Source: Limonium bicolor
Taxonomy: Eukaryota; Streptophyta; Magnoliopsida; Caryophyllales; Plumbaginaceae
DNA length: 64,000 nucleotides
Direction of reading: 5' to 3'
Assembly: GCA_023374045.1 (NCBI GenBank)
Contig: CM041778.1
Location: forward strand, 402,440,438 to 402,504,437
Below the pieces are notes generated by a model that worked only from the letters and a program-made list of their open reading frames with translations, did no database searches and was not told the origin of the DNA. The position numbers and the translations under genes were made by a program. Below, piece by piece: positions 31,332-57,698 of this stretch. How positions within the stretch are numbered: position 1 is the stretch's first letter; each line of letters opens with the position of its first letter.

Positions 31332-33351
31332 ACACCCAGAATCCTGCAGAATGTGTTTTAAGGGTTTAAAAGATGGGGGTTTGAATGGTATTGGTTTTAG
31401 ATGATGCTTAGGAGTTGTTTGGTGACTTATAAAGGTCCTAAGAAGTATAAACAAGTGTTGGAAGTGAGTGAGCAAGTTAAGGAGTTAAGTACACTAAGTT
31501 AAACCGAATTAACGGATAACGGGGTAGGTACGGAAGTAGCAATAATGTGCATACCGTGACACCGTAATAATAATTGAACCATTTGACATGTAATTAGTGT
31601 TTAAGAATATGATTCGAGAAACAAGGGTGAGCCAAAGAACACGAGAACCCCCGGTAAAGATAAACCCCGGTAAAAGGTATGATTTCCTCATGCTCTGTAT
31701 CCTAACTTGGTTACCCCGATTTGTGTGCTTGTTTGATTGTGTGATCACCTAACAAGATAAATGCACGAATCGGATTGTGTGTACTCTCTTGTGTTTGTAT
31801 TGTATCGTTTGTGGTTGGATTGTATTCCTTTAATCAAAGTTCGTATAATTCATGAAATGTGGATTGAGAATGAATTGCTTGATTGTGATTGTGTTTGGGT
31901 AGTGCGACTCATAGTTGAGTCTTGTGTGAGTACAGACTCGTAGAAGGAGTCAAGTGCGAACTAATAAAATGGTGGAAACACACTACAACAATTGAACCCT
32001 TATGCGGTAACCTAAACCTACGAGCGCACTAGAACGTGAGAAAACATACGGGAGTAGCAACCTCCCGATAAAGGTTAGAGAACCGAAACGACTAAATCCA
32101 CACGATAAATATTAGTGGAAGTATATGAGTAACCTCTAACTAGAGGATTGGGAAGTTGTTCAAAATACGAACCTTGAGTAAAGTAATGAATGGTAAGGGA
32201 TCACCAAACCCCTTAGAAACATAGTCGAACACCAATGAGAGGAATCAACTAACATGAGCAAGGTCCCGAACATGAGAGTATTCAATAAGTTGGTTGAAAA
32301 CCTTAAACCTTAGAATACTAGACATTGAGGAATTCCCTAAGCCGTTAGATGCTATCGAAAGAGATACTTCTAGGCTAATCCATGAGATTGTGAATTGACT
32401 CCGAGAGTGGAGTTTGGGGATTTGAGTAGCCCGGTAGTGAACCGGACATTTGAGTATTTGAGGAGCTAACTGTATAGCCCTATTTGTATTTGAGCCCGGT
32501 GGTGGGTCTTGTGCATGACCCTACCCGGAGGTCCTGAGATCGACTTAACATGCACCTTGAGCATTGAGTATTGACTTGGGAACTTGAGTATGAGTATTGA
32601 GTATGGAATCGAGTATGTGAGTATTGAGAATTGAGTTGTGACTTGTGGGACTTGAGAATTCGAGATGAGTGGGGAATTGAGTTGAGTGTTGTAGACCTTG
32701 TTGAGATTGTGAGGAAGAGTACCCAAGGGAGTGGGTAGTACATGAGTAGTTGAGTAAGGCATGGTGAGGTAGAAACCCTCAAGCCTAATTAAAGAACATA
32801 TTGAACCAACCTTTGATGTGTGGGTTAGTGCTTGTGTTCAATGTTGAACTTGATTGTGAATGTACATATATAATGTATGTTGTATGCATGTTGTCTGTGA
32901 TAAAATGAACCACATGCTCTCGACCAATTAGTCGGCGTACCCTCGCTAGTACGCGGGGTGCGGAAGTTATATTCAGCGTAAGCTGACCCCCTAGGGGGAA
33001 CGTTTTTAGTGTGCAGGTACTCGAAGCGAACATGATCACTGTAAGAGACCGACAGCTAAGACAGACACCGTTCGAGAGTAGGACGGGGTTGTTATTGATA
33101 TGGGTAGTGATTAAAGCAATTGTAATTGTTGTATTGTGGAATTGTAAGACCAAAAGGTAGTTGTTAAACTTGGGAATTGTAGATACTCGGTATAGAACGG
33201 ATTTGAGATTGTATTGTATATAATGGATATGAAGGTTGTCTTTAGTTTGAGGATTGATTAAGTGAAGGAAGTATCTTCTGTAGGGTACTCGGTAAAAGAC
33301 CCATCAGACCGATATTATATTTGTTGTAGTATTTGTGTTTGGATTGGCCTT

Positions 33352-38601: not shown

Positions 38602-40272
38602 TGAAATACCCCGTACTTAATTAGGGTTATTAAATTACTCTAATACGATATTGAGGGCCTACTAGTGCCTAATGAATTTTGGTAGAAAGAATAAATCCAA
38701 AAGAAACAAGAAAAACGCTTAAAAAGTGAAAAACGCTAAAACGAGCGTTAAGTGACCCTAGGAGAAATACAACCTCAAAGAGGGTATTAAATGAATTTAA
38801 AAGGCTTAATAATGCCTAAATAATATATGGGAATAATTCCCGAAGAAAATGGATCCAAATAAGGTATTAAAACGCTAATAAAGCTTTAGCGCACATTTTT
38901 CGAGAAAACCCGAAAACGAGACTTTAAGTGGTCAAACGAACCCGTAAAAAATTATAGTTCATTAAATAACTATAAATAAACATTAACGGAAGCTTAAGAG
39001 TCATTAAAATTAAAGAAACGAGAAAATTTCAGAAAACGGGCCGGTTAGTGAATAGTGCTAAACCGGGTAAATTAATGAGCGTTTTCTGTAAAAGACGAAA
39101 AACGCTCCAGCTTGTACAATAAATGTGGGCGGTTTTTAATTGTTAAACAGCCCTCACTCACACTCTCACCTAGCTAAGAAAGAAGAAAGAAAGGTCAAAA
39201 GCAAAAAGCAATAAAGTGCCTCCTTTTTCTCTTTCCTCTCATTTCCCTCTTCTCTCTCTCTCTCTCTCTTCTTTCTTTCTTCCCCACCGTGATCTGCCTC
39301 CTCCCTTCCTTCCCTGGCAATTTTTGAAGCTCTCCACAAGCTTCCATGGCAGCCTCTCTTCATCCTCTTGCTCAAGCCACAAAAATGCTCCAAATCAAAA
39401 GCAAAACACATATTTGTGTTCCTCTCATCATTCTCTATCTATCTATCTTTTCAAAATCGAAAATAATGAAGTTCATCTCCATGGTTTTCCCCATTTGAAG
39501 AGAAAATGGCATAAATGGGTAGCTTGGAGTCTCCTCTTCCTCCTAAGGTAAAAATTTCCAAGAAAAAGTCATTCTCTCCCCATTTTCCTTGGTAGCCGAT
39601 TTTGGCTCTCTCTCACACCTTGGTTTTCTCCTTAATTTTGAGCTTCATTTCAACCCTCCAATGGTGGAGTAATCCCCTTCTTGATTCAAGGGTGAGTACC
39701 TCTCTTAAAAGGCCCAAAAGGTAAACCCTAACTTGTGCTCTAAGCCCTTTTTATTGAATTAAGATTTCCTAAGGGTTTAGATAATTAATTGAATGTATTT
39801 TGCGTTTCTTGAATGTTAGGATGGAGTTTGGAAACTCCATTCCCTCTTGACCAATTTTGGGAAGATAAGGAACAAGAGGAGAATCAAAGAGGAATTTGTG
39901 AATTAAGGTATGAAACCCACCTTCAAGCTTGATTTAAATTGCTTAAGGTTTTGGGATGGGTAATTTAATAATGAACCCAAAATATGGAAAATATTGTGTT
40001 TAGTTGGTTTTGTGAGAGCTTGTAAATTGTTGGTCGAATTTGAGAGAGATTGTGAACTTGTGTTGAATTAAGGGCCTAAGTGCCAAGCTTTTGAGCTATT
40101 GTGGTTATATTGTGGTTTAGTGAGATTTTTGAGCTATATTGTGTTTGAAAAGATTTTGGTAAATTTTGGATTGTTATGGTGTGCTGGTAGGACCCTTATG
40201 GGTGTGGCTAGATTATGGATGGAAAATTGACGAGAATGGTGAATTTGGACATGCTAGGTTATGGGGAGGTTA
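38602..40272 (+). mobile_element. A 3' LTR, left part (before G)
   Basis: First ~1.67 kb of A's 3' LTR, nearly identical to 28879-30540. It ends at GGGGAGGTTA, where G is inserted; the LTR resumes at 54890. Confidence 0.9.
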
Positions 40273-43263
40273 TGAAATACCCCTAAATTAATTTAAATTA
40301 ATTTAGGGGATTTCTTTTATTAAAATTTAATTATTATATGGAATTATGAATATTAAATTATTATATGGAATTGTGGAATTTATTTAGGGGTTTTCTCCTA
40401 TTTAACCCTAATTATTATACATTATTATATAGTATTATGAATTTAATAATAAGATTTATAAGTCAATAAATCTTGGGAAAATTTCTAAACACTCCAAATA
40501 TGCTATAAAGATTTTAGGAAGCGTTGGAATATTGTTTTGAAACATAAAAGTCAATATAAGATTCTAGAAACCTTAAAGCTTATTAAGCCTTGTTAGAGTT
40601 GACTTTTTGAGAATGGTCAAACCAGGCCATGAAACATATACCAATAAATAGGTTATGAAAATCCATGAAGATCGATAAAAAGAACGTTAAAAACGGATCA
40701 TCCTAGCCAAAGTTATGATAAATTGAAGTTTAGAGCCAAAATTTTGAAGGATGCTGACGTGTCCAGGACACGTGTCGCGCCCAGTCAGCACCCGACACTT
40801 AACCGTTTGATTTTCCCAGCGGTTTTGGCATGTCGAGGGTCGATCTTTAGACACCTATATCTTTTTCCCTACTCCACCATTTGGTATGCCGTTTGTTTCA
40901 TTCGATTCTCCTATCTTTCCTCTTTCCACCACCATTACTCACACACCATCTAACTCCTTCTACAATGATCGGAAAGTTGATCCAAAGTTGCCTCCTCGCG
41001 AGTTCGTAACCCAGAACTGTAGTTTTCCTGAAAACGGGTAAACTTCGTCACGCCATAACTTCTTCATTTCTCGTCCAATTTCTTGTTCTTTAGCTTGTTT
41101 TGAAGATCTCTAATCCCTCTATAACTTTCATGTTGATGGCCATGGCTGATTCGCACTGGGTTGGGAGATAAATCTGTCTAAAGTTGCCCACTCGATCACG
41201 GCGGTAATTCTGCCCAGTTTCATCCTGAACCAACTAGGTAAACTCGGATCTTGTGAGATCTATAACTTTCTCCCTAGTTCATCAAATCAATGATTCTTCC
41301 ACTAGCATCTAGAGTTACATGTCTAGTTTGGATTGTGATAGGTTACATGAATCGAATCTCTCTCAGTTGGTGCGAGTTGATTCGAGAAGAGGCGTACCTG
41401 AAACGCGCATAAAATACCGATTCCAGAATTGTCGACTTGGTTTCACCCCGATTAATGCAATTCCGGTAAGCTTCTGGTCAAATTGTTCCATTGATGCCAT
41501 TTGAAATTTCATCACACCGATCAAACCCACATGCCAATTTAGCCTATTATGCATTACAATGGGAGAATTTGTAGGAATTGCAACCGAATTAAGTTCTGTA
41601 CCGAAATAAACCCTAACTCTCGAATCGATTTCGAAACATGGTGTATACTGCATTATAATTGGGGAATCGGTACCATTAGAACCGAATTGAGAACCGGATT
41701 GATTACGAATCGATAGGAACATCATCGAATTTCGTTCTGTAGATTGTGAGTTATAGGGTGATTAGTACTCGGGTCGGAAGGGGAGAACGCTGAAGAACTC
41801 GAGGGTTCTGGGCCGCCCGATCGCGGTTAAAAGAAACGGACGGCCACGATTAAAACGTTTCAAAATATAAGTATAAGTTTTTTATATTATTCCCAGAATA
41901 AAGTCCTAACTTGCTAGATTTATTTAATGGCCTTCCCGATTGTATTTTGACTTGAATTTTAACCATAGATTCCTTATAAAGTCTAGTTTATTTTGATGTA
42001 AATTAATATGAGTTTTGAGTTTTTAAACATAAGTTATGAATTTTGCAAGTTACGGGTATTATGGAATTATTTGGGTGATTTAAAAAGATATTTTTATGGA
42101 ATAAAATTTTATAATATGTCTAAAATGTTATAGTTATTATATATTAAGTTTGGGAATTTTTGGGCAAGGGTAAATAGGTTTAAAAATTATGTTTATGAGT
42201 TTTTCATAAGAATAACCTATAATATAAAGTTTTTAATGTAACCAAAATTAAAGTATGGTTGGGTAATTAACTTTTTAGGATGGGGAAAATAATTAAACCT
42301 AAATTAACATTTTACATCATCATGTTTATAAATATTTTGGGTGTTATCTTTTCGGTGAAGTAAAAGTTGTTTACACAAATATATTTATATGAGAAGAATA
42401 AAATAGGGACTTATATTAAATCAAGGTATTAAACTAAACTACATATTATTATTATGGAGGTTAATATGCTTAATTAAACTAGGGCAAACACTTTATTTTA
42501 TAAACCATATATCAGTTGTGAGATGTCTAAAAGATATTAGATATAATTAAATACAATAAGAATTTCTTAAAGAATGTTTTGGATAAATCCTAAGAAAAAT
42601 ATAAGTGTATATATAATACATTAGAAGTAAATAAAAGAAGTAACATTCATTCCTTATGGGAAACATATTAAGAGGGAAAAATTGGGATAAACCTAATTCC
42701 TACGTGGCAATTAAAAATATTAAAGGTTAGTGTGACATCCAGGTAGACTATTAGGGGGAAATACACATCTTAACCTTAATAGGTGTCAAAGTAAGTTAGC
42801 CAATCGTAACCCAAGGGATTAATTAAAACAAACCTATAATCAGGAGTGGGAAAATGGAGTAAGATAAGTTTACATTAAAAATTTAATTACGAGATCTAGC
42901 CAGTTCCCTAGGAGGGAGTAACTGTAAAACGAAACTATAGACTAATAAGAATGGGGGATGTGTAGCATTATAGTGCCTTAACTAATCAATACTTGGAATA
43001 CTTTAATTATAGGTGATTAGTGGAAGTAGTTCGCATTTTCAAGTTTGGTTGCTCTGCTTCTACATATACCAGGTACGATTTCTCGTACTCAGATACTTTT
43101 GGTGACGAACTTCTTGGAATGTTTTGAAACGCTAACTGAGCTTGAATGAATCTCGAAAGGGAACTGTTGTGTGACTAACTCAGCTTGATGTGACTAACTG
43201 GACCTTGAATGTACAATTCACATGATCATTGGTTCTCCTTATCTGGTTACCTCATTAGATATT

Positions 43264-43330
43264 AACTGCTGAGGGTTTACGCTTCTGCACTCTATAGGAC
43301 TGAGTGTTTTGGTATTGCGCTCGTGCAGTT
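43264..43330 (+). other. Conserved ~67-nt inverted-repeat motif (copy in G 5' LTR)
   Basis: Outer arms AACTGC (43264-43269) and GCAGTT (43325-43330), inner hairpin CACTC/GAGTG, core CTGCACTCTATAGGACTGAG. In A and B the related motif lies in the interior, not in the LTR. Confidence 0.7.
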
Positions 43331-43442
43331 ATTAATCTAGTGGGAATATGGGAATGTTGATCTTGGTAAATTCTTCTTTCGACTATGGATATCATTTCAA
43401 CCATGAGCTGAGTCTTTGTTGTGATGTGCGCACATCTTCACC

Positions 43443-43585
43443 GGTAAACAGCGAGGGGCTGTATATCCCCTGTCCAATCGGACGTGGTAAACAGCGAGGG
43501 GCTGTATATCCCCTGTCCAGACGGACGTTGTAAACAGCGAGGGGCTGTATATCCCCTGTCCTATCGGACGTAGTCAACAGCGAGC
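43443..43585 (+). repeat. 43-bp tandem repeat with hairpin core (G 5' LTR)
   Basis: Three full 43-bp units (43443-43485, 43486-43528, 43529-43571) plus a partial fourth. Each unit holds GGTAAACAGCG and an AGGGG...CCCCT inverted repeat around CTGTATAT. The 3' LTR copy is at 54119-54262. Confidence 0.9.
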
Positions 43586-44219
43586 CATCTCTTCCAATTG
43601 GTTTCATTCCACCCTCGAGTTGTTAGTTCTTGGATTCCTTCTTTCCTTTCCTAGTCCTTGTGACTACTTGGGTTGTTCTACTCTTACTGGAACTTAATCT
43701 AACTTAAGCATGGGATGTTCACTAACTCCTGGTGTGGTTTTAACTGACTAACTTTATCTTTATTGTTGACTATCTCTATTACTTGCTTGTTGCTTTGACT
43801 TGGTGATTTGAAGTGCCTTGTCCCTCTGCTTGGTTTTTAAGAGTTTCTTTCTAAGTTTCTATATTGTTAAAGATTATGTTTTAATTCCTGTTATGAGGAT
43901 TGTACCAGTTCCATTCCAGGGAACTGACTCACCCCTTCCGGGGTGGGCTGCTTGGTTTCATCATGCAGGTACGAATTGTTGTACAGGTGGCCACGAAGAG
44001 GGTGAGTGTATGGGATGGGAATTAGGAATTTTGGAGAGCTATTGTATCTTGTTATTATTACTTTTATGTGATGTTTTCTCGAGTTCAGACCGTAGCTTTT
44101 GTAATATCATAAGTTGTAATTGGTGAGGTTTGGTGCCGGGTGTTTGGAACCCGATGATCTGTAATCGCCTTAGTGTTTTATTTCCGCTGCATTTATGTTA
44201 ATAGGGGCGTTACAGAAAG

Positions 44220-44246
44220 TGGTATCAGAGCGTAGTTACGCTCTGA
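44220..44246 (+). other. G primer binding site (tRNA-iMet type) with overlapping hairpin
   Basis: TGGTATCAGAGC (44220-44231) is 5 nt after the LTR. TCAGAGCGTA (44225-44234) and TACGCTCTGA (44237-44246) form a perfect 10-bp inverted repeat. At the ninth position A has an A-T pair where G has T-A. Confidence 0.85.
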
Positions 44247-44502
44247 GCCCGAGAAAACAAGCCGAGTGAAATACTTAGAATATAGGTGCCCTTAAAACTG
44301 GGAAGTGGGGTAGAATTGGGAAGTGAGGATTCTAGAAAGGCACGTTACCCTTACCCCATACTTTGCCTTACTTACATTACTCATGAACACACTAACTACA
44401 TACCGTCCATGGGTAGTTATGAAACACTTCGCGCGTTACTATTTAGATATCTAGAATTAATACGCAACATCTGAACAACAAACACCATCCTTTAGCAGCT
44501 AA

Positions 44503-45160
44503 ATGTCTCAAAGAGGAGGACGTGGAGGAAGAGGAGGACGAGGAGCGGGACCCCCAGGTGGTTACGGACCCGACGCTGTTACCCCTGAGGTCATAGCTCA
44601 GATTGTGACCGCTGCATTAGCTCAGCAGCAGGCTCAGATCCCTCAACCACCGCCACCACCACCCAATGGTCCACGAGAGTTTAACTGTTTGAAAGCGGTC
44701 AACGATCTTCGTCCCCCAGTCTACGAAGGCCAGCCAGTACCAAAAGCTCTGGAGAAATACATAGCTGAGATTCAAAAGGCTTTTACCTCTCTACATGTTC
44801 CAGCAGAGCGCCAAGTGGACATAGCGGCCTACTTTCTCCAAGGGCCCGCTCATCGATGGTGGCAGACAGCCAGAGCCGAGCTGACCGCTCAAGCGAACTT
44901 TGATTTCCAAGCTTTTCTGGTGGCCCTGAGAGCTAAGTTCTACCCATCCTACCTACAGAAGAGGATGAGAAGTGAATTTGAGCAGTTGAAGCAGGGGACT
45001 TCCTCTGTTGCTGAATACTATGACAAGTTTGTGGAGTTGCTTGCCGTCATTGGCGAGGGGGCTTACGCTCCGAGGTATTTGGTGGACAAATTCCATACCA
45101 TACCGGCTTGGACTTCAGGATCATGAATATGATCGGTTCCACCAGAGGAAGACTTTACAG
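44503..45160 (+). CDS. gag: gag, first exon: capsid region of G
   Basis: Structural protein forming the virus-like particle. The ATG at 44503 is about 290 bp after the LTR. The N-terminus is an Arg/Gly tract (residues 3-15) and a Pro-run (about residue 49-56). It is followed by a retrotransposon gag region with the words ALEKYIAEIQKAF, AAYFLQGPAHRWW and QLKQGTSSVAEYYDKFVELL, typical of plant chromoviruses. The frame ends at a TGA at 45124-45126, but gag-like sequence continues in another phase to 45160. There the sequence changes to an AT-rich stretch with splice-like ends. A short indel near 45080-45100 explains the early stop. Confidence 0.85.
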
Positions 45161-45225
45161 GTATAAAATATGACTATGAAATTTCTAGCATGCTTGGATT
45201 CCCCTAACACGTGCTGTAACGATAG
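45161..45225 (+). other. Candidate short intron 1 in gag
   Basis: 65 bp, CAG|GTATAA at the 5' end, CCCTAAC branch-like word about 24 nt before the end, GATAG|G at the 3' end, AT-richer than its flanks, and full of stops. The upstream phase is disturbed by a nearby indel, so phase continuity cannot be shown here. Confidence 0.45.
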
Positions 45226-45435
45226 GAACTAGCTGATGATGCGAATGACTGCGAAACCACCATCGCATACCAGGATTCTGTGCTAGGGAAGAGGAGGAAT
45301 GATAATGGAGGAGGAAATGGAAGAGGATCCTCTCAGAATCATGAGAAGAGGGGAAATTTTTCAAGGGAGGGAATGAGAAGACCATCGTTCCTTCCCATGC
45401 TGATGCTAAGCCTCTCCGCTATGAGCCACCTAGGG
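45226..45435 (+). CDS. gag, second segment
   Basis: Hydrophilic linker between capsid and zinc knuckles, with the words ELADDANDCET and LGKRRNDNGGG. The first part is in phase 1 (from 45226) and the last part in phase 3 (from about 45390), so a short indel lies near 45385-45395. The end CCACCTAGGG joins in phase to 45505 if 45436-45504 is removed. Confidence 0.6.
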
Positions 45436-45504
45436 GTGAGAAAAGATAGAATCTACAATGTAGCTTTATTTTGCTATCACATTACTAACCTTGAATTGAA
45501 ACAG
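45436..45504 (+). other. Candidate short intron 2 in gag
   Basis: 69 bp starting GTGAGAAAAG and ending AAACAG, with a textbook TTACTAAC branch word about 20 nt before the end. Removing it joins the phase ending CCT AGG G to GA GAC AAC and runs straight into the zinc knuckles. Unspliced, that frame meets stops. Confidence 0.6.
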
Positions 45505-45854
45505 GAGACAACCCGGTGAGAAGGTATTTCTGCAGGTGGTGCCAGAAGGATCACCCAGGAAAGGACTGTAAAGGGAACCTGGTAGAATGCCACTACTGCG
45601 GTAAGAAGGGGCACAGGGGGTTCGAATGCTTCTTGAACCCGGACTCCAAGAGTTACAAGCCACACACACCGGTCGACGGCTAAAGCCTCAGCTACAAATG
45701 CTGCCGGAGGAGGAGGTAGAGGTGGCACAGGAGTGCAGGACCAGGACCATCTACCAACCGCCCTGGCCAGAGCTACCCTCAAAGCCGGGCAAAGCACCAA
45801 TTCTCAACCTGGTGGATCGTGTTGAATCAGCTAGTGATGATCCGAGTTCACCTG
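45505..45854 (+). CDS. gag nucleocapsid: two zinc knuckles and acidic tail
   Basis: Nucleic-acid binding part of gag. First knuckle CRWCQKDHPGKDC (C-x2-C-x3-H-x4-C), second CHYCGKKGHRGFEC (classical C-x2-C-x4-H-x4-C), both in phase 3. A stop follows at about 45681. From about 45626 a phase-2 frame stays open and ends in an acidic stretch (LVDRVESASDD) that leads, through a good donor CCTG|GTGAGG at 45854/45855, to the AlkB segment. The switch between the two phases near 45680 needs an indel. Confidence 0.7.
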
Positions 45855-46034
45855 GTGAGGACTACTTTCCTACTGAAGAAGCTTAGACCTTCGTTCCACT
45901 TAATTTCTTCAAGAAATTTTTCCTCTACATTGTAAAGGGATGAACTATAAATCCCTCTTTCTTTACATCTTTGTGCTAAGACCAGTTTGAACCTTGACTT
46001 GTTTTACTTAATGGCAATTGTTGTTTTCGTTCAG
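45855..46034 (+). other. Candidate intron 3 between gag and AlkB
   Basis: 180 bp, GTGAGG donor, T-rich body, GTTTTCGTTCAG acceptor. Removing it joins phase 2 to phase 2 exactly, and the downstream segment then begins with FDIC, which matches where I recall the conserved part of plant ALKBH1-like proteins starting. The AlkB segment has no ATG of its own near its start, which favours splicing from gag. Confidence 0.6.
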
Positions 46035-46750
46035 CTTTCGATATTTGCTTTCCTGTATTGCCTATTTCCACACCCACCATTCCCTTTGAGGCCAAACCAC
46101 ACCCACCAGAGAAGTGTGAGATATTGAGACCTGGGATGGTCTTATTACGAGAATTTCTGACCCCAGCTGACCAATATGCGTTGATCCTCAAGATCAGAGA
46201 ATTAGGTGTGAAAGGAGGAAACTTTTACACCCCTACCTTCAAGAACGGTGCGACCATGAAGGTAAAGATCATGTGCCTAGGTAAGAAGTGGGACCACACC
46301 ACTGGAAGCTATGAAGAGGTGAGGTGCCACCAATTCCAGGAGAGTTGCAGACCATTATCGGGGCTGCAGTTAAAGCGGCCCAGGAATTGGAGGATGAGCC
46401 CGTCCCAGACCTAACCGCAGACGTGTGCATCATCAACTTCTATGGGAAAGAAGATAAGCTAGGAATGCATCAGGATAGGGACGAGTCACTGGAGTCCATC
46501 GCCAGAGGAGTTCCAGTGGTGTCCATATCACTTGGAGACGATGCGGAGTTCCTATTTGGAGATCAGAAGAGAATGGATCTCGCTACAAAGATCCTCCTGA
46601 AGTGGTCGGTGATGTGCTGATATTCGGGGAGCAGCCAGACTCATCTACCATGGGGTGAAGAGAATTAAGCCCCACACAGCCCCCACATCCATCATCAACC
46701 AGACCCACATGAAACCTGGCCGTTTAAATCTGACCTTTAGACAGATCTAG
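46035..46750 (+). CDS. AlkB-like 2-oxoglutarate/Fe(II)-dependent dioxygenase domain inside G (frame-broken)
   Basis: AlkB enzymes use Fe(II) and 2-oxoglutarate to remove alkyl groups from nucleic acid bases. Visible in order: FDIC at 46037-46048, RPGMVLL from about 46127, a nucleotide-lid-like region (FYTPTFKNGA, KIMCLGKKWD), the Fe ligand motif HQD at 46468-46476, a VVSISLGDDAEFLFG strand, GDVLIFG at 46608-46628, the third Fe ligand His in YHG at 46649-46651, and the 2OG-binding R-L-N-L-T-F-R from 46721 to 46741. The stop TAG at 46748 follows the natural end of the fold. Phases are 2, 1, 3, 2; the breaks lie at about 46320 (a 5-bp tandem duplication GAGGT), 46600 and 46630. The order of words is closest to plant ALKBH1-like proteins, so host capture is likely (inference). 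As read, this copy cannot make the whole domain without frameshifting. Confidence 0.88.
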
Positions 46751-46847
46751 CCTTGTAATTTATGCAATTTCAGCATTGTAATCATTAAAATGCTCACGAA
46801 GACCTTAATAAGAGTGGAAATCTTATGAGTTTGTTTCGTCGTTGTAG

Positions 46848-47390
46848 GGGTTGGGAACTCAGAGATCAGGTTGACTGTGTTGAACCAGGCTCAAGCGAAG
46901 AGCAATGGGATGGTCATCACAGGTATAACTACTAGCCTGATTTATTACCTTGGAAGTAATGCCTGAGAATCTTAGAATCTACTCTATGGTTTCAGGCACG
47001 TTCTTAATTAATGAGGTGGAAGCCACTGTTCTGTTTGATTCTGGAGCCTCCCATTCATTCGTATCCCAGGAATTCCATGCTAAGATAGATGCCCCCCACA
47101 GAGTATCCATGACTGCTCAGTTTTATTGCCATCCAGAGAGTTAATCAAGTGCAGTAAGCAATGTAAGGACTTGAATATACGCATCAAGGGAGCAGATTTT
47201 CTCTTTGATGCCATTGTCTTCCCTGGCATGGGGTTCGACATAATTGTGGGCATGGACACACTACAGCGATATAGAGGTAGGCTGCACTGTGCAGAGCATC
47301 GCCTCCTCTTGAAGTCAGCTACAGGGATCACAGTATCATACCGAATACAACCAAGCCAGCCCGACTGTGAAGGTTGTATCGGCATTATCC
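46848..47390 (+). CDS. Aspartic protease (PR) of G, with a candidate intron at 46923-46995
   Basis: Retropepsin that processes the polyprotein. Active-site loop [10 protein letters not shown] is in phase 3 (about 47030-47060). The flap/C-terminal part [11 protein letters not shown] follows in phase 2 after a shift near 47140. Upstream, 46848-46922 is open (words [11 protein letters not shown]) and ends ATCACA G. The 73-bp stretch 46923-46995 (GTATAA...TTTCAG) can be removed to join it in phase to GC ACG TTC before the active site. A candidate acceptor CGTTGTAG at 46840-46847 could take a donor in gag, which would skip the AlkB segment. Confidence 0.75.
46923..46995 (+). other. Candidate short intron 4 in PR
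   Basis: 73 bp, ACAG|GTATAACTACTAG... to GGTTTCAG|GC. Joining keeps the phase and gives a Gly-Thr-Phe-Leu word typical before chromovirus protease. The unspliced frame is also open from 46950, so splicing is plausible but not forced. Confidence 0.5.
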
Positions 47391-48240
47391 CTGATGAAGG
47401 AGGTGTCCAAGGGAGCGACCGCCTACTACTGTTATGCCCAGGATCTGAGGACAGATTCGAAGTTCAAGAGTGACGTACCTGTTGTGTCGGAGTACCCCGA
47501 CGTTTTTCCGGAGGAGTTACCTGGACTACCACCATTGAGGGAGGTTGAGTTCAACATCGACCTCATACCTGGTACAGGACCGATTGCCAAAGCACCATAC
47601 CGGATGGGCCCTGCGGAGATGGTGGAATTGAAGAAACAACTGCAGGAGTTACTAGATAAGGGTTTCATCCGACCCAGTGTCTCACCTTGGGGTGCTCCTG
47701 TGCTGTTCGTCAAGAAGAAGGACGGAAGCATGAGATTATGTATTGACTACAGGGAGTTGAATAATGTCACGATCAAGAATAAGTACCCACTGCCCAGGAT
47801 CGATGACTTGTTCGACCAGCTGAGGGGAGCTAAGGTGTTCTCTAAAATTGATCTGCGTTCCGGGTATCATCAGATAGCTGTAGCTGAGTCAGATATAGAG
47901 AAGATAGCCTTCCGGACCAGATACGGCCACTATGAGTTCACAGTGATGCCGTTTGGACTGACCAATGCACCGGCGAGATTTATGGATTTGATGCAGAGAG
48001 TCTTCCAAGCCCAGCTAGATAAGTCAGTGGTTTGTATTCATAGACGACATTCTGATCTTCTCCAAGAGCAAAGAGGGACACGAGAAGCATTTGAGGACAG
48101 TCTTGCAGACTCTGAGAGAGAGGCAACTCTATGCCAAGTTCAGCAAGTGCGAATTCTGGCTGGACAAGGTATCATTTCTTGGTCATGTGATCTCAGCTGA
48201 GGGAGTTTCAGTGGACCCCAGCTAAAATTGAGGCGGTAAA
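47391..48240 (+). CDS. Reverse transcriptase of G
   Basis: RNA-dependent DNA polymerase of the Ty3/gypsy type. Main frame is phase 3 to 48200, with [13 protein letters not shown], the finger region [31 protein letters not shown] (first catalytic Asp) and [10 protein letters not shown]. The catalytic FIDD box (48037-48048) is present but one phase away (phase 1), so a single-base type indel lies just upstream, at about 48020-48035. After it the normal RT connection continues through the other phase to about 48240. All catalytic residues are therefore present although the frame is broken. Confidence 0.9.
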
Positions 48241-49074
48241 GAGCTGGCACAAACCTCGCTCAGTGACTGAGATTCGGAGCTTCCTTGGGTTGGCTGGCTA
48301 TTATAGACGCTTTGTGAAGGATTTCTCCAGGCTAGCCAAGCCCTTAACCTCTCTGATGAAGAAGGATAGCCCGTTTGTATGGACAGAGGCATGTGAGGCC
48401 TCCTTTCAGGCACTGAAGGATGCTCTGACCACAAGCTCCTGTATTGGTGATCCCCGAGGGAAATGAGGGATTCGAGGTTTACTTGTGATGCTTCGGCAAG
48501 GGGGGGATCGGTGAGTATTGATGCAAAATGTAGAGTCGTGCTTACGCTTCTCGACAGCTGAAGAAGCACGAAGAAATTATCCCACATGACCTTGAGTCCT
48601 CGCCTGCCTGAAGATCTGGCACTAGGAGTACTGAGACAGTGATGATGATGATCGAGAATGAGATGAGGAATGATGATGGAATGCTGGACAGAGTGATTGA
48701 GACAAAGCAGAAAGAGAGTCGCTGACACGAGACAGAAGAGGAGAAGAGCGCACATGATGAGATCAGACATGATACAGCCATAGAGACATGGCGACTCATA
48801 TGGAGCCACGGTCCGAATTATGACAGATCATAAGAGTTTGAAATACATCTGGACCCAGAAGGAGCTGAACTTGAGACAGCGACGGTGGATCGAGCTACTA
48901 GCTGATTATGATATCGACCTCCAGTACACTGAGGGTAAAGGTAATGTCGTGGCAGACGCTCTGAGCAGAAGAGCATATTCACTTCTTGCTCTCATAGAGA
49001 CGACCACGATAGCTGAGGAGTATATGCAGCTCAGGATAGTGATGTGTATCTACAGGGTATCAGGCAGAAATTAG
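48241..49074 (+). CDS. RNase H region of G, disrupted in the middle
   Basis: Degrades the RNA strand during reverse transcription. The RT-RH connection (48263-48466: [27 protein letters not shown]) is intact. The first RNase H Asp lies in CDAS at 48484-48495. [10 protein letters not shown] (from 48822) and the last Asp in ADALSRR (about 48952-48972) are intact. Between 48500 and 48820 the phase changes repeatedly, and 48625-48810 is GA/GATGA-rich sequence with no match to RNase H. Confidence 0.8.
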
Positions 49075-49081
49075 CAGATGG

Positions 49082-50268
49082 TTGACTGATGGTCTGAAGT
49101 ATGACTACGAGCTAGACAGCGAGGGACACCTTCGGGTCAGGGGCAGACTCTGTGTTCCTCAGGATGCGACAGAACTTCAGACCAGGATTCTCTCTGAAGC
49201 TCATTCCTCTACATTGTCAGTACATCCTGGAGCCACCAAGATGTACAAGGATTTAAAGAAGCTATTCTGGTGGAGCGGGATGAAGAGGGATGTAGCAGAC
49301 TTCGTCTCGCGATGTCTCACCTGTCAGAAGGTGAAGTTCGAGCATCGACGACCAGGAGGCCAGATTCAGTCGTTACCGGTACCGTGCTGGAAGTTTGACG
49401 ATATTAGTATGGATTTTGTGGTCGGTCTCCCTCCAGCCAGAGGTGGATTGAACACAATTGGGGTGATAGTCGATAGGCTAACTAAGACAGCTAAGTTTAT
49501 ACCTATCAAGGACACATGGAAGGTGCCCAAACTAGCTGAGGTGTTCACCACAGAGCACATCCGGTACCATGGGGTACCGAAGACGATCGTCTCCGATCGT
49601 GATGCACGTTTCCTTAGTAGATTTTGGCGTCAGGTACAGGAGGCATTTGGTACTCAGTTGCGACTTAGCACAGCCTTCCACCCTCAGACAGATGGGCAGA
49701 CCGAGAGGACGATTCAGACACTGGAAGATATGTTGAGAGCGGTCGCCTTAGACTATCAGGGGAGTTGGATAGAGCGTCTACACTTGGTAGAGTTCTCCTA
49801 CAACAATTCCTATCACTCGTCTATCGGCATGGCCCCATTTCAGGCTCTGTATGGCAGACCGTGCCGGACACCTTTGTCATGGAGTGACCTGCTGAGACAG
49901 TTTTGATTGGCCCAGAGTATATTCAGAGACTGCAGGATGACATCAGAGTTATTCAGCAGCACATGAGGGCAGCGCAGTCTAGGCAGAAATCTTACGGGGA
50001 TCAGCGTACCAGAGAGCTTGAATTTCAGATCAGTGATATGGTTTTCCTACGAGTGTCTCCGATGAGAGGTATCTTCAGATTTGGGATGAGAGGGAAGCTA
50101 AGCCCTAAGTATGTTGGTCCGTACAGGATTACGGAGCGCGTGGGCCCAGCAGCGTATCGACTAGACCTACCAGCGGAGTTGGGGAAGGTACATGACGTGT
50201 TTCATGTATCTCAGCTGAAGAAGTATGTACCTGACCCTTCTCACGTGCTACAGCCAGAGAGATTAGAG
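49082..50268 (+). CDS. Integrase of G (core plus GPY/F module)
   Basis: Inserts the element's cDNA into chromosomes. Zinc-binding HHCC region: His residues near the start (HSSTLSVH) and CLTC at about 49315. Catalytic Asp in MDFVVGLP at 49412-49414, second Asp in SDRDARF at 49595-49597, Glu at 49703-49705, exactly 35 residues between the last two (D,D35E). The frame is open to 49906 and overlaps the next ORF at 49903; a 1-2-base indel near 49890 separates the two. The C-terminal part has the chromovirus GPYRITERVGPAAYRLDLP module and the HDVFHVSQLKKYVPDP word. Confidence 0.92.
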
Positions 50269-50448
50269 ATTGAACCTACACTGAGATATGAGGAGACTCC
50301 CATACAGATCCTGGACACGAAGGTCCGGGAAACGAGAGGCAGATCAGTCAAGCTGGTGAAGGTTCTTTGGGAGCATCATGGGGTTGAAGAAGCTACTTGG
50401 GAGTCTGAGGACTCTATGAGAGTGAAGTACCCACACCTATTCCCATGA
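50269..50448 (+). CDS. Chromodomain-like tail of G integrase
   Basis: Last ~60 residues, in phase with the second integrase ORF (49903-50448): PIQILDTKVRETRG, LVKVLWEHHG, EEATWESEDSM, ending YPHLFP. This is the group II chromodomain-like form of plant Tekay-type chromoviruses, which lacks some aromatic cage residues (family knowledge). It probably biases insertion to heterochromatin. Confidence 0.8.
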   Translation: MEPTLRYEETPIQILDTKVRETRGRSVKLVKVLWEHHGVEEATWESEDSMRVKYPHLFP

Positions 50449-50519
50449 TATTTCCTTGTATTCTTGCCTTTACTGGGTTCTTGTTCATAGCGGTACGAGG
50501 GCGTACCTTGGCTCTTTTC

Positions 50520-50530
50520 GGGGGGGGGGG
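50520..50530 (+). other. G11 homopolymer after the pol stop
   Basis: About eleven consecutive G between the pol stop and the LTR. It is not at the LTR edge, so it is not the standard PPT; length is uncertain because homopolymers are often misread. Confidence 0.5.
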
Positions 50531-50839
50531 TAGTGCATACTCTTCCTTCGTCACCTCATCCAGATTATGCCCTGTTTGTTTGTTAGTAGAATGATGGAGA
50601 GGTGTATGCATGTACTTGATTCATACATTGTGTGATTCTTGATTTCTGTTTATGAAAATCTTGGTTTTGGCCTGACGATGAATAATCTTGCGTGGAATTT
50701 GGAAATGGAAATGAGTGGAAATGGATGTGGGAGAAGTTACAATTGGTATGGAATTTTGGTTGGGATTGTTATTGGATGAATATTCTGGTAATTTTTGACA
50801 GCACACCTGATGTGGTGTGAGTAGCTATTAGTTGGTGAT

Positions 50840-50876
50840 AAACTTCGGGACGAAGTTTCTTTTAAGGGGGATATAC
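50840..50876 (+). other. G hairpin and polypurine tract
   Basis: Arms AAACTTCG (50840-50847) and CGAAGTTT (50851-50858), loop GGA, then CTTTTAAGGGGGATATAC and the LTR start at 50877. A and B have AACTTTG/CAAAGTT arms at the same place. Confidence 0.85.
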
Positions 50877-53800
50877 TGAAATACCCCTAAATTAATTTAA
50901 ATTAATTTAGGGGATTTCTTTTATTAAAAATTTAATTATTATATGGAATTATGAATATTAATTATTATATGGAATTGTGGAATTTATTTAGGGGTTTCTC
51001 CTATTTAACCCTAATTATTATACATTATTATATAGTATTATGAATTTAATAATAAGATTTATAAGTCAATAAATCTTGGGAAAATTTCTAAACACTCCAA
51101 ATATGTTATAAAGATTTTAGGAAGCGTTGGAACATTGTTTTGAAACATAAAAGTCAATATAAGATTCTAGAAACCTTAAAGCTTATTAAGCCTTGTTAGA
51201 GTTGACTTTTTGAGAATGGTCAAACCAGGCCATGAAACCTATACCAATAAATAGGTTATGAAAAACCATGAAGATCGATAAAAAGAACGTTAAAAACGGA
51301 TCATCCTAGCCAAAGTTATGATAAATTGAAGTTTAGAGCCAAAATTTTGAAGGATGCTGACGTGTCCAGGACACGTGTCGCGCCCAGTCAGCACCCGACA
51401 CTTAACCGTTTGATTTTCCCAGCGGTTTTGGCATGTCGAGGGTCGATCTTTAGACACCTATATCTTTTTCCCTACTCCACCATTTGGTATGCCGTTTGTT
51501 TCATTCGATTCTCCTATCTTTCCTCTTTCCAACCATTACTCACACACCATCTAACTCCTTCTACAATGATCGGAAAGTTGATCCAAAGTTGCCTCCTCGC
51601 GAGTTCGTAACCCAGAACTGCAGTTTTCCTGAAAACGGGTAAACTTCGTCACGCCATAACTTCTTCATTTCTCGTCCAAATTTCTTGTTCTTTAGCTTGT
51701 TTTGAAGATCTCTAATCCCTCTATAACTTTCATGTTGATGGCCAGGCTGATTCGCACTGGGTTGGGAGATAAATCTGTCTAAAGTTGCCCACTCGATCAC
51801 GGCGGTAATTCTGCCCAGTTTCATCCTGAACCAACTAGGTAAACTCGGATCTTGTGAGATCTATAACTTTCTCCCTAGTTCATCAAAATCAATGATTCTT
51901 CCACTAGCATCTAGAGTTACATGTCTAGTTTGGATTGTGATAGGTTACATGAATCGAATCTCTCTCAGTTGGTGCGAGTTGATTCGAGAAGAGGCGTACC
52001 TGAAACGCGCATAAAATACCGATTCCAGAATTGTCGACTTGGTTGGTTACCCCGATTAATGCAATTCCGGTAAGCTTCTGGTCAAATTGTTCCATTGATG
52101 CCATTCGAAATTTCATCACCGATCAAACCCACATGCCAATTTAGCCTATTATGCATTACAATGGGAGAATTTGTAGGAATTGCAACCGAATTAAGTTCTG
52201 TACCGAAATAAACCCTAACTCTCGAATCGATTTCGAAACATGGTGTATACTGCATTATAATTGGGGAAATCGGTACCATTAGAACCGGAATTTGATTACG
52301 AATCGATAGGAACAAGAATCATCGAATTTCGTTCTGTAGATTGTGAGTTATAGGGTGATTAGTACTCGGGTCGGAAGGGGAGAACGCTGAAGAACTCGAG
52401 GGTTCTGGGCCGCCCGATCGCGGTTAAAAGAAACGGACGGCCACGATTAAAACGTTTCAAAATATAAGTATAAGTTTTTATATTATTCCCAGAATAAAGT
52501 CCTAACTTGCTAGATTTATTTAATGGCCTTCCCGATTGTATTTTGACTTGAAATTTTAACCATAGATTCCTTATAAAGTCTAGTTTATTTTGATGTAAAT
52601 TAATATGAGTTTTGAGTTTTTAAACATAAGTTATGAATTTTGCAAGTTACGGGTATTATGGAATTATTTGGGTGATTTAAAAAGATATTTTTATGGAATA
52701 AAAATTTTATAATATGTCTAAAATGTTATAGTTATTATATATTAAGTTTGGGAATTTTTGGGCAAGGGTAAATAGGTTTAAAAATTATTTTATGAGTTTT
52801 TCATAAGAATAACCTATAATATAATAAAGTTTTAATGTAACCAAATTAAAGTATGGTTGGGTAATTAACTTTTTAGGATGGGGAAAATAATTAAACCTAA
52901 ATTAACATTTTACATCAGTATGTTTATAAATATTTTGGGTGTTATCTTTTCGGTGAAGTAAAAGTTGTTTACACATAAATATATTTATATGAGAAGAATA
53001 AAATAGGGACTTATATTAAATCGAGGTATTAAACTAAACTACATATTATTATTATGGAGGTTAATATGCTTAATTAAACTAGGGCAAAACTTTATTTTAT
53101 AAACCATATATCAGTTGTGGAGTTGTCTAAAAGATATTAGATATAATTAAATACAATAAGAATTTCTTAAAGAATGTTTGGATAAATCCTAAGAAAAATA
53201 TAAGTGTATATATAAATACATTAGAAGTAAATAAAAGAAGTAACATTCCTTATGGGAAACATATTAAGAGGGAAAAATTGGGATAAACCTAATTCCTACG
53301 TGGCAATTAAAAATATTAAGGTTAGTGTATGTAGAATATAAAGAATAATTAGGGAAAGAAGTAGATAAAAATAAATAATAGAATAGAAATAAATGTAATA
53401 GAAAGATAAGTATAAATAGGATATCTATTAGGGGGAAATACACATCCTAAACCTTAATAGGGGTCAAAGTAAGTAGCCAATCGTAACCCAAGGGATTAAT
53501 TAAAACAAACCTATAATCAGGAGTGGGAAAATGAGAGTAAGATAAGTTTACATTAAAAATTTAATTACGAGATCTAGCCAGTTCCCTAGGAGGGAGTAAC
53601 TGTAAAACGAAACTATAGACTAATAAGAATGGGGGATGTGTAGCATTATAGTGCCTTAACTAATCAATACTTGGAATACTTTAATTATAGGTGATTAGTG
53701 GAAGTAGTTCGCATTTTCAAGTTTGGTTGCTGCTTCTACATATACCAGGTACGATTTCTCGTACTCAGATACTTTTGGTGACGAACTTCTTGGAATGTTT

Positions 53801-53939
53801 TGAAACGCTAACTGAGCTTGAATGAATCTCGAAAGGGAACTGTTGTGTGACTAACTCAGCTTGATGTGACTAACTGGACCTTGAATGTACAATTCACATG
53901 ATCATTGGTTCTCCTTATCTGGTTACCTCATTAGATATT

Positions 53940-54006
53940 AACTGCTGAGGGTTTACGCTTCTGCACTCTGTAGGACTGAGTGTTTTGGTATTGCGCTCGT
54001 GCAGTT
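53940..54006 (+). other. Conserved ~67-nt inverted-repeat motif (copy in G 3' LTR)
   Basis: Same outer arms AACTGC/GCAGTT as the 5' LTR copy; one substitution in the inner loop (CTGTAGG for CTATAGG), matching A. Confidence 0.7.
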
Positions 54007-54118
54007 ATTAATCTAGTGGGAATATGGGAATGTTGATCTTGGTAAATTCTTCTTTCGACTATGGATATCATTTCAACCATGAGCTGAGTCTTTGTTGTGA
54101 TGTGCGCACATCTTCACC

Positions 54119-54262
54119 GGTAAACAGCGAGGGGCTGTATATCCCCTGTCCAATCGGACGTGGTAAACAGCGAGGGGCTGTATATCCCCTGTCCAGACGG
54201 ACGTTGTAAACAGCGAGGGGCTGTATATCCCCTGTCCTATCGGACGTAGTCAACAGCGAGCC
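54119..54262 (+). repeat. 43-bp tandem repeat with hairpin core (G 3' LTR)
   Basis: Same three units plus partial fourth as at 43443-43585. Confidence 0.9.
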
Positions 54263-55432
54263 ATCTCTTCCAATTGGTTTCATTCCACCCTCGAGTTGTT
54301 AGTTCTTGGATTCCTTCTTTCCTTTCCTAGTCCTTGTGACTACTTGGGTTGTTCTACTCTTACTGGAACTTAATCTAACTTAAGCATGGGATGTTCACTA
54401 ACTCCTGGTGTGGTTTTAACTGACTAACTTTATCTTTATTGTTGACTATCTCTATTACTTGCTTGTTGCTTTGACTTGGTGATTTGAAGTGCCTTGTCCC
54501 TCTGCTTGGTTTTTAAGAGTTTCTTTCTAAGTTTCTATATTGTTAAAGATATGTTTTAATTCTTGTTATGAGGATTGTACCAGTTCCATTCCAGGGGGAA
54601 CTGACTCACCCCTTCCAGGGTGGGCTGCTTGGTTTCATCATGCAGGTACGAATTGTTGTACAGGTGGCCACGAAGAGGGTGAGTGTATGGATGGGAATTA
54701 GGAATTTTGGAGAGCTATTGTATCTTGTTATTATTACTTTTATGTGATGTTTTCTCGAGTTCAGACCGTAGCTTTTGTAATATCATAAGTTGTAATTGGT
54801 GAGGTTTGGTGCCGGGTGTTTGGAACCCGATGATCTGTAATCGCCTTAGTGTTTATTTCCGCTGCATTTATGTTAAATAGGGGCGTTACAGGTTATGGCA
54901 AAATTTTGGTAGAAAAACGAGTGTTTAAAGATGACTTAGTGTATTGGAGAACCTAGTGTTTGTACTGTTGTTTAGAGTTGAGCGATAGTCTTGAAATGGC
55001 ATTTGGAGAACTAGAGGAAAGGAGGTAAAAATCTGTAGCATAGGAGTATTGAAATGCTTTGGAAAAGCTAGAAAAGAGCAAGTGTGCAAGACTTAGGAAA
55101 TGAGAGTTGGACTTGGGTTTTTAGAAGTGCTTTTATGTAGGAATGGTTTGCAATGGTCATTGATGGATTTGGTGAGGTTGTTGGTAAGAGGTAAAAACAA
55201 GCAAGAAGAAGTTAGAAATGCAAAAGAGTGAAAAATGCAAAATGAGAGAACTTGGATTGTTGAATTTGAACAAGAATTGGAGTAGGGATTTAACCAGGAT
55301 TTGAGGTGGTTTAGAGCATGTTTTAGGGTGATTAATTATGTGGAAAACTTGTGGGAAGACTAGGGAAATATTAAGGGTGGTTTAAGGATTGATTAGGGGC
55401 TGAAAAATAATGTAAGTTGCAGGTTTTAGCAG

Positions 55433-55687
55433 GGTCCGGGACCTAGTCCTTGGACAGAGTCCTGGACCACCCACTAAAAATAGGCCGAGAGTTCTTGCAG
55501 CACTTGGTCCGGGACTTGAGGGGATGGACAAGGTCCCGGACCACCCATGAATATGTAGCAGAGAGTTAGAACCATTGTTTGGTCCGGGACTTGACCTAGG
55601 TACAAGGTCCCGGACCACATGTTATTTTCACCCGAGAGTTTCACAATGCATGGTCCGGGACTATAGGTAGGGACCAAGTCCCGGACC
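55433..55687. repeat. GGTCCGGGAC / GTCCCGGACC hairpin array (A 3' LTR)
   Basis: Four units, same as 31077-31331, with a few substitutions (unit 1 has TCCTGGACC for TCCCGGACC). Confidence 0.85.
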
Positions 55688-57698
55688 ACGCCTAGAATCC
55701 TGCAGAATGTGTTTTAAGGGTTTAAAAGATGGGGGTTTGAATGGTATTGGTTTTAGATGATGCTTAGGAGTTGTTTGGTGACTTATAAAGGTCCTAAGAA
55801 TTATAAACAAGTGTTGGAAGTGAGTGAGCAAGTTAAGGAGTTAAGTACACTAAGTTAAACCGAATTAACGGGATAACGGGGGTAGGTACGAAAGTAGCAA
55901 TAATGTGCATACCGTGACACCTTAGTAATAATTGAACCATTTGACATGTAATTAGTGGTTCAAGAATATGATTCGAGAAACAAGGGTGAGCCAAAGAACA
56001 CGAGAACCCCCGGTAAAGATAAACCCGGTGAAAGGTATGATTTCCTTATGCTCTGTATCCTAACTTGGTTACCCGATTTATGTGCTTGTTTGATTGTGTG
56101 ATCACCTAACAAGATAAATGCACGAATCGGATTGTGTGTACTCTCTTGTGTTTGTATTGTATCGTTTGTGGTTGGATTGTATTCATTTAATCAAAGTTTG
56201 TATAATTCATGAAATGTGGATTGAGAATGAATTGCTTGATTGTGATTGTGTTTGGGTAGTGCGACTCATAGTTGAGTCTTGTGTGAGTAGAGACTCGTAG
56301 AAGGAGTCAAGTGTGAACTTATAAAATGGTGGAAACACACTACAACTATTGAACCCTTACGTGGTAACCTAAACCTACGAGTGCACTAGAACGTGAGAAA
56401 ACATACGGGATAGCAACCTCCCGATAAAGGTTAGAGAACCGAAACGACTAAATCCACACGATAAATATTAGTGGAAGTATATGAGTAACCTCTAAGAGGA
56501 TTGGAAAGTTGTTCAAAATACGAACCTTGAGTAAAGTAATGAATGGTAAGGGATCACCAAACCCCTTAGAAACATAGTCGAACACCAATGAGAGGAATCG
56601 ACTAACATGAGCAAGGTCCCGAACATGAGAGTATTCATATGTTGGTTGAAAACCTTAAACCTTAGAATACTAGACATTGAGGAATTCCCTAAGCCGTTAG
56701 ATGCTATCGAAAGAGATACTTCTAGGCTAATCCTTGAGATTGTGAATTGACTCCGAGAGTGGAGTTTGGGGATTTGAGTAGCCGGCAGTGAACCGGACAT
56801 TTGAGGAGCTAACTGTATAGCCCTATTTGTATTTGAGCCCGGTGGTGGGTCTTGTGCATGACCCTGCCCGGAGGTCGTGAGATCGACTTAACATGCACCT
56901 TGAGCATTGAGTATTGACTTGGGAACTTGAGTATTGAGTATTGAGTATGGAATCGAGTATGTGAGTATTGAGAATTGAGTTGTGACTTGTGGGACTTGAG
57001 AATTCGAGATGAGTGGGGATTGAGTTGAGTGTTGCAGACCTTGTTGAGATTGTGAGGAAGAGTACCCAAGGGAGTGGGTAGTACATGAGTAGTTGAGTAA
57101 GGCATGGTGAGGTAGAAACCCTCAAGCCTAATTAAAGAACATATTGAACCAACCTTTGATGTGTGCATTAGTGCTTGTGTTCAATGTCGAACTTGATTGT
57201 GAATGTACATATATAATGTATGTTGTATGCATGTTGTCTGTGATAAAATGAACCGCATGCTCTCGACCAATTAGTCGGCGTACCCTCGCTAGTACGCGGG
57301 GTATGCGGAAGTTATATTCAGTGTAAGCTGACCCCCTAGGGGGAACGTTTTTAGTGTGCAGGTACCCGAAGCGAACATGATCACTGTAAGAGACCGACAG
57401 CTAAGACAGACACCGTTCGAGAGTAGGACGGGGTTGTTATTAATATGGGTAGTGATTAAAGCAATTGTAATTGTTGTATTGTGGAATTGTAAGACCGAAA
57501 GCTAGTTGTTAAACTTGGGAATTGTAGATACTCGGTATAGAACGGATTTGATATTGTATTGTATATAATGGATATGAAGGTTGTCTTTAGTTTGAGGATT
57601 GATTAAGTGAAGGAAGTATCTTCTGTATAGGGTACTCGGTAAAAGACCCATCAGACCGATATTGTATTTGTTGTAGTATTTGTGTTTGGATTGGCCTT

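Follow-up and report, generated by a model that had tools for sequence, protein, structure and literature searches.

Why does a plant retrotransposon carry a domain of the AlkB type, and is this domain expressed and maintained as a part of the element? The question is raised by a stretch of 64,000 nucleotides from Limonium bicolor (C3:402440438-402504437 of an assembly of 2.92 Gb that has eight large contigs), here referred to as the window. It contains a long terminal repeat (LTR) retrotransposon of 14.6 kb, spanning 40273-54890 and bounded by LTRs and the target site duplication (TSD) GGTTA, with an AlkB (2-oxoglutarate-Fe(II) dioxygenase; 2OG for 2-oxoglutarate) domain at 46035-46750. The RNA of this family is alternatively spliced, as recorded in genomic retrocopies and in agreement with the sequence: one donor in gag (45854) is joined in frame either to the AlkB exon at 46035, for a Gag-AlkB reading, or to the exon at 46848, for Gag-Pro-Pol.

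Identity, copies and selection of the AlkB domain

In the window copy, AlkB is split into three reading-frame pieces, all of which were assigned to AlkB. The middle and C-terminal pieces matched PF13532 with 72.0 bits (E-value, E, 1e-19) and 32.9 bits (E 9.7e-8), above the curated cut-off of 31.2, while the N-terminal piece alone scored 14 bits and stayed under it. The best structure for all three pieces was the plant protein 5xeg/5xoi (E 2.6e-20, 3.4e-11 and 2e-16), on which they are colinear (chain residues 7-76, 111-183 and 192-230). We take 5xeg/5xoi to be rice ALKBH1; the record title reads just 2OG-Fe oxygenase. An initial annotation, made from the sequence of the window, had placed an AlkB domain at 46035-46750 between the zinc knuckles and the protease of an element with matched LTRs and a TSD, and this was borne out. 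Its borders agree to the base with those of the exon, with the acceptor AG finishing at 46034 and the stop codon TAG at 46748-46750, and the motifs that it named (HQD, the His in YHG, and RLNLTFR) were all found; the order of Pfam domains is that of a Ty3/gypsy element. Its placement in the AlkB family by profile held for the middle and C-terminal pieces, with the N-terminal one under the cut-off. Absent from it were the three broken frames, the introns of the element and the splicing of AlkB, as an alternative exon, onto Gag.

When L020, an open copy, served as the query, 3048 database proteins were matched. Among the best 120 of these, P0002-P0004 lead with 52-58% identity to L020, followed by proteins at 42-52%. 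Those named after an organism are all from plants, many are titled DNA N(6)-methyladenine demethylase ALKBH1D, and the names ALKBH1D and ALKBH1C occur among the best matches. The matches of the middle piece in PDB at E<=1 comprised the plant oxygenase 5xeg, bacterial-type AlkB, ALKBH1 and ALKBH2, with no ALKBH5 or FTO chain among them. By database names and structure matches, the element AlkB is thus classified as ALKBH1-type and not as ALKBH5/9-type.

The domain is present in many copies. We identified 150 scored AlkB matches in the assembly (E <=5.3e-51), which is a lower bound, and a 40-nt pattern for the start of the AlkB exon was found in 436 places at <=3 mismatches, as compared to 0 for the reversed control. 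These numbers rule out a chance or one-copy insertion, a reservation that the initial annotation had made. A 40-nt pattern for the short exon between Gag and protease was found in 1014 places at <=3 mismatches (reversed control 0); 436/1014 does not represent the fraction of elements with AlkB, since the two patterns may differ in conservation. Among the places listed for contig 1, 24 of 40 exact short-exon matches were accompanied, at the expected distance, by an exact match to the AlkB start; the remaining 16 include L065, a locus from which AlkB has been skipped, and one place with a scored AlkB match. For the alignments, 20 loci were taken from the AlkB search (L001 being the window copy) and 20 more were fetched by place. 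The frame from FDIC to LNLTFR is unbroken in 24 of the 39 copies other than that in the window, and in 29 of 59 when L045-L064 are included; some of the frameshifts may be assembly errors. One copy, L039, lacks 44893-45508.

A column-by-column reading of the 40 aligned copies, window copy included, showed that the iron ligands (HxD...H) and the 2OG ligands (R.....R) are kept. H145, D147, H205 and R235 were found in 40/40 copies and R229 in 39/40.

Selection was examined by comparing minor variants common to >=2 of the 40 copies with what neutrality predicts for base changes of the same kind in the same contexts. Nonsynonymous (N) and synonymous (S) shared variants amounted to N7/S17 in the part of AlkB before the query piece (ratio 0.19), N2/S15 in the query piece (0.07, a value depressed by the choice of copies) and N1/S11 after it (0.05); the corresponding ratios for singletons were 0.47, 0.11 and 0.34. 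Shared-variant ratios elsewhere in the element were 0.14 for gag exon 1 (N12/S43), 0.47 for gag exon 2 (N31/S29), 0.35 for the zinc-knuckle exon, 0.10 for protease-reverse transcriptase and 0.02 for integrase-chromodomain, and 1.62, 0.96 and 0.77 for three introns, a set that leaves out the body of intron 3, where there is no open frame. The ratio of nonsynonymous to synonymous substitution rates (dN/dS), calculated for open copies only, was 0.06-0.09 between L020 and each of L047, L055, L059 and L060 (dS 0.51-0.65) and 0.12-0.14 among the latter four, with 0.48 for the close pair L047/L055. These four had been retrieved with a DNA junction pattern, independently of their similarity in AlkB; the flanking AlkB pieces and the L045-L064 set are free of the bias that the choice of copies brings to the query piece. 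As judged from the substitution patterns, the catalytic residues and the sequence of AlkB are under purifying selection, in a range similar to that of pol. The shared-variant ratios and the dN/dS values between subfamilies rule out the status of a passive passenger, and neutral decay, which the initial annotation had set against a dN/dS below 1, is excluded.

Two alternative splice junctions

Before the junctions were searched for, one donor (CCTG/GTGAGG) and two competing acceptors of the same phase had been predicted from the sequence, TTCAG/CTTTCG for AlkB and GTAG/GGGTTG for the protease. The GGTGAGG donor is kept in 38 and the AlkB acceptor in all 40 of the aligned copies. Without splicing, Gag would be read to a stop about ten codons past the donor (GEDYFPTEEA, then stop).

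Genomic matches to the AlkB junction GTTCACCTG/CTTTCGATATTTGC numbered 8 without a mismatch, 5 with one and 4 with two. At <=3 mismatches there were 222 places (reversed control 0), and those with three mismatches among the 100 of 222 listed look like unspliced acceptor ends. The 180-nt intron in front of AlkB is gone in 15 of 59 judged loci, all of them within the 20 fetched by the junction pattern; the other five of these 20 (L058, L060, L062-L064) are unspliced. In L049, the frame runs from the zinc knuckles through DRVESASDDPSSP-AFDICFPV to LNLTFRQI without a break, and is in frame with the preceding gag open reading frame (ORF) except for one premature stop. The junction that skips AlkB (45854/46848) was found in 37 places at <=3 mismatches (control 0), none of them exact, with one mismatch in 4, two in 27 and three in 6, mostly in one variant form. 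Two of the 37 places were read (L065 and L066), and both lack AlkB as well as intron 4. In L066, a single frame leads from the zinc knuckles through SSP-GVGNSGIRLNVLNQAQAKSNGMVIT-GTFLVNG to the DSG of the protease, while L065 is frame-shifted.

The features of the element, by position in the window, are:

40268..40272, no strand: left copy of the TSD GGTTA (right partner at 54891-54895)
40273..44214, +: 5' LTR, 3942 bp, TG...CA, paired with the 3' LTR
44220..44231, +: primer-binding site TGGTATCAGAGC, from the sequence
44503..45160, +: gag exon 1, MSQRGGRGG..., with capsid domain (PF03732, 57.2 bits on 44503-45126)
45161..45225, +: intron 1, GT...AG, from the alignment (absent in 13 of 57 judgeable loci)
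45226..45435, +: gag exon 2, open frame ELADDANDCETT
45436..45504, +: intron 2, GT...AG, from the alignment (absent in 15 of 58 judged loci)
45505..45854, +: gag exon 3, ending at the shared donor CCTG/GTGAGG (donor table)
45855..46034, +: intron of the AlkB-inclusion form, 180 nt (junction 45854/46035 in retrocopies)
46035..46750, +: AlkB exon, predicted ALKBH1-type 2OG-Fe(II) dioxygenase, TAG end, frameshifted here (profile, structure, selection)
45855..46847, +: intron of the AlkB-skipping form, 993 nt, holding the AlkB exon (junction 45854/46848 in retrocopies)
46848..46922, +: short Gag-to-protease exon GVGNSEIRLTVLNQAQAKSNGMVIT, in frame with the gag donor (40-nt pattern)
46923..46995, +: intron 4, GTATAAC...TTTCAG (present in 59 and absent in 2 of 61 loci judged)
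46996..47473, +: protease, VLFDSGASHSF, with a broken frame in the window copy (PF08284, 44.5 bits on 47084-47473)
47313..48200, +: reverse transcriptase, part (PF00078, 74.3 bits)
48784..49074, +: RNase H, part (PF17917, 31.8 bits)
49043..50448, +: integrase and chromodomain-like end, two overlapping ORFs (PF17921, 70.2 bits; PF24626, 90.6 bits)
50864..50871, +: polypurine tract AAGGGGGA, from the sequence
50877..54890, +: 3' LTR, 4014 bp, paired with the 5' LTR
54891..54895, no strand: right copy of the TSD GGTTA (left partner at 40268..40272)

Several retrocopies have lost more than one intron. Introns 1, 2 and 3 are missing from L049, L052, L053, L054, L055 and L059, introns 2 and 3 from L056, and introns 1 and 3 from L050, in which intron 2 was not judged; L003, L006, L014 and L035 lack introns 1 and 2, and L010 and L026 lack intron 1. 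The Gag-AlkB retrocopies retain both the intron after AlkB and intron 4. Because all 60 judged loci retain the intron directly after AlkB, no copy shows AlkB joined to pol, and onward splicing of AlkB into pol was ruled out. One further joint was seen in L005 (at about 1210), where the start of gag is fused exactly, and out of frame, to the start of the AlkB exon with no GT donor and with a few bases common to both sides; this is likely due to template switching, the alternative being an odd splice.

The LTRs, TSD, primer-binding site, gag and the order protease, reverse transcriptase, RNase H and integrase identify a Ty3/gypsy element. By eye, gag exon 3 contains two CCHC zinc knuckles, and the primer-binding site is presumably of the initiator-Met tRNA type. 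The end of the integrase is SH3-like with a weak chromodomain match in Pfam (PF00385 Chromo, 18.7 bits, E 0.0016), and because this match lies under the cut-off of 25.1, the element is likely, and not proven, to be a chromovirus; of the plant chromovirus named in the initial annotation, the Ty3/gypsy part stood and the chromodomain part is weak. Tekay is a candidate lineage for it. The two LTRs differ by 29 changes over 3909 aligned bases and 138 gap columns (Kimura two-parameter distance 0.0075), which corresponds to an insertion age of about 0.3-0.5 million years at rates of 1.3e-8 to 7e-9. Each LTR holds tandem copies of a unit of about 43 bases (43443-43584 and 54119-54260). At 48605-48798, in the part for RNase H, those copies that extend so far cease to align, and the sequence of the window copy seems to be scrambled locally. 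Beside the element lies a second pair of long repeats (54890-56000 and 30534-31641, 97.5% identity over 1115 bases).

Divergent families and AlkB phylogeny

A genome search with an ALKBH1-type protein from Arabidopsis (P0074) scored 129 places at 51-60% identity, a set that may overlap with the 150 AlkB matches. Two of the 129 were read (L067 and L068), and both are protease-containing elements of other, very divergent families, with the order zinc knuckles, AlkB exon, stop and protease. In both, the donor and the two acceptors are phase-compatible, with predicted joints RETG-CFDIC or RETG-LESNG in L067 and RDTG-NFDIC or RDTG-CELEK in L068; intron 4 is absent in the former and present in the latter. 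A host ALKBH1 gene was not recognised among the 129 places, each of which is a single piece (about residues 72-307), with none resembling separate exons.

Phylogenetic analysis included six element rows from the Limonium bicolor genome together with P0002, P0003, P0004 and P0123, against 48 other ALKBH1-type rows. P0123 had been added by a profile made from four element-like rows, while the high score of P0122 was solely due to an internal repeat. The ten element-type rows form one clade (support 100/100, 100% of 200 bootstrap trees), a topology that fits one capture followed by long descent inside elements. The position of P0002, P0003, P0004 and P0123 suggests that element AlkB occurs in other plants. 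P0002, P0003 and P0123 are encoded on contigs of 26.6, 26.6 and 10 kb. A search of viral contigs recovered four distant relatives only.

Proposed role of Gag-AlkB and comparison with known systems

We favour, with a probability of roughly 0.6, the interpretation that AlkB is carried by Gag into the virus-like particle and acts there as a demethylase on the nucleic acid of the element. In a Ty3/gypsy lineage, probably of chromoviruses, the alternative 3' coding exon would encode a demethylase of the plant ALKBH1 type. Splicing to AlkB would give an in-frame Gag-nucleocapsid-AlkB that ends at the AlkB stop, and splicing past it to the protease exon would give Gag-Pro-Pol. We infer that Gag-AlkB is translated, packaged through Gag and catalytically active, so that it may demethylate adenine or other alkylated bases in packaged RNA and/or nascent single-stranded cDNA. 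Better stability, better reverse transcription or evasion of control by methylation may follow, by analogy with dUTPase; the anti-silencing or repair role put forward in the initial annotation is possible in this sense.

Several observations weigh against this interpretation. Demethylase activity, substrate and packaging are predictions from sequence. Alternative splicing is known here from genomic copies, which prove splicing and not translation of the spliced mRNA, and most Gag-AlkB retrocopies carry stops or frameshifts. Removal of intron 4 is not coupled to AlkB skipping: its junction was matched in 24 places, of which at least 3 adjoin an AlkB exon (C1:240044433, C3:220639610 and C5:243797280). 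The 40 copies were picked by similarity to the window AlkB, which depresses N in the query piece. For the L067 and L068 families, splicing is only predicted from phase because four genome searches recovered 0 junction retrocopies. With the zinc knuckle-AlkB part of L049 as the query, no protein with both was found among the best 120 of 252 database matches.

It is possible, although less likely, that AlkB is made and selected but works in the cytoplasm and not in the particle; either free or linked to Gag, it would erase N6-methyladenosine (m6A) from element and host mRNA and raise element expression. Such a role has been proposed for orchid elements, the Phalaenopsis AlkB demethylates m6A single-stranded RNA (ssRNA) in vitro (PMC9289625), and ONSEN is under m6A control (PMC12786077); the Limonium AlkB, however, is ALKBH1-type and not ALKBH5/9-type by the PDB matches of the middle piece at E<=1, and when spliced it is read in fusion with Gag. 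Much less probable is that the AlkB exon mainly serves splicing: as an alternative terminal exon it would limit the output of Gag-Pol, with its enzyme activity now irrelevant. AlkB and protease exons do have one donor in common, the AlkB exon has a stop at its end, and a Gag/Pol balance through splicing is known in EVADE (PMC12786077), but a stuffer needs no active site, and here the catalytic residues are kept and dN/dS between subfamilies is 0.06-0.09 across the domain. A fragment of a host AlkB gene that hitch-hikes as passively transduced DNA would agree with the proximity of the domain to plant ALKBH1-type proteins and is very improbable in view of the strong purifying selection and of three divergent families with identical place, phase and stop in a single AlkB clade.

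The broadest form of the favoured interpretation, which we put forward tentatively and at slightly less than even odds, is that an old plant chromovirus lineage, made up of several families and represented in other plants as well, uses mutually exclusive splicing to package a demethylase of the ALKBH1 type as a Gag fusion, with which it erases alkylation or methylation from its own RNA and cDNA. If true, Ty3/gypsy elements would have captured AlkB a second time, independently, and the demethylase would be, to our knowledge, the first of a retroelement to be particle-borne. The capture of two AlkB types by plant Ty3/gypsy elements, with strong selection here, suggests that base methylation or alkylation limits such elements. 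The family is also a clear example from nature of a retrotransposon in which a captured enzyme exon is alternatively spliced, with both forms recorded as spliced retrocopies.

We compared the element to known systems. The initial annotation knew of no described Ty3/gypsy family with AlkB, but Alvarado-Marchena et al. (2022) reported a Phalaenopsis element of this type with in vitro m6A demethylase activity on ssRNA (PMC9289625). Gypsy_Pa_2799 and its kin are Ogre-like elements of 25.5 kb with a Tat/Ogre-type reverse transcriptase, gag and pol in one ORF and an AlkB of the ALKBH5/9 type in a separate ORF2 of 565 aa, and a screen of 121 angiosperm genomes found the domain in the two Phalaenopsis species only (PMC9289625). 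Both are plant Ty3/gypsy LTR elements with an AlkB 2OG-Fe(II) domain, many copies and conserved cofactor residues, but the Limonium element differs in its chromodomain-like end, its length of 14.6 kb, an ALKBH1-type AlkB between gag and protease, introns, and Gag-AlkB produced by alternative splicing, and it lacks the separate ORF2, the single gag-pol ORF, the size of about 25 kb and the ALKBH5-type domain of the Gypsy_Pa_2799 group. A literature search, with most subscription papers outside its reach, returned no AlkB in a chromodomain element and no Gag-AlkB splicing. In EVADE, splicing yields a short Gag RNA and sets the balance of Gag and Pol, and ONSEN is controlled by m6A (PMC12786077). 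As with the introns of EVADE and Ogre (PMC12786077), splicing of the element RNA decides which protein is made, but unlike in EVADE a captured enzyme exon would add a further product, Gag-AlkB.

The plant ALKBH1-type proteins (ALKBH1D; 5xeg) have 42-50% identity to L020 and share with the element AlkB the FDIC before RPGM and the series HQD...H...RLNLTFR. Unlike these proteins, the element rows form their own clade and have a KRMDLA-like segment in common, while six residues ahead of PPIP are deleted in L020. Some retroviruses carry a dUTPase beside the nucleocapsid, joined by frameshift or located in pol. The Limonium element would resemble them in that Gag, close to its zinc knuckles, is extended by an enzyme of nucleic-acid hygiene, but the enzyme is a different one and is joined by splicing.
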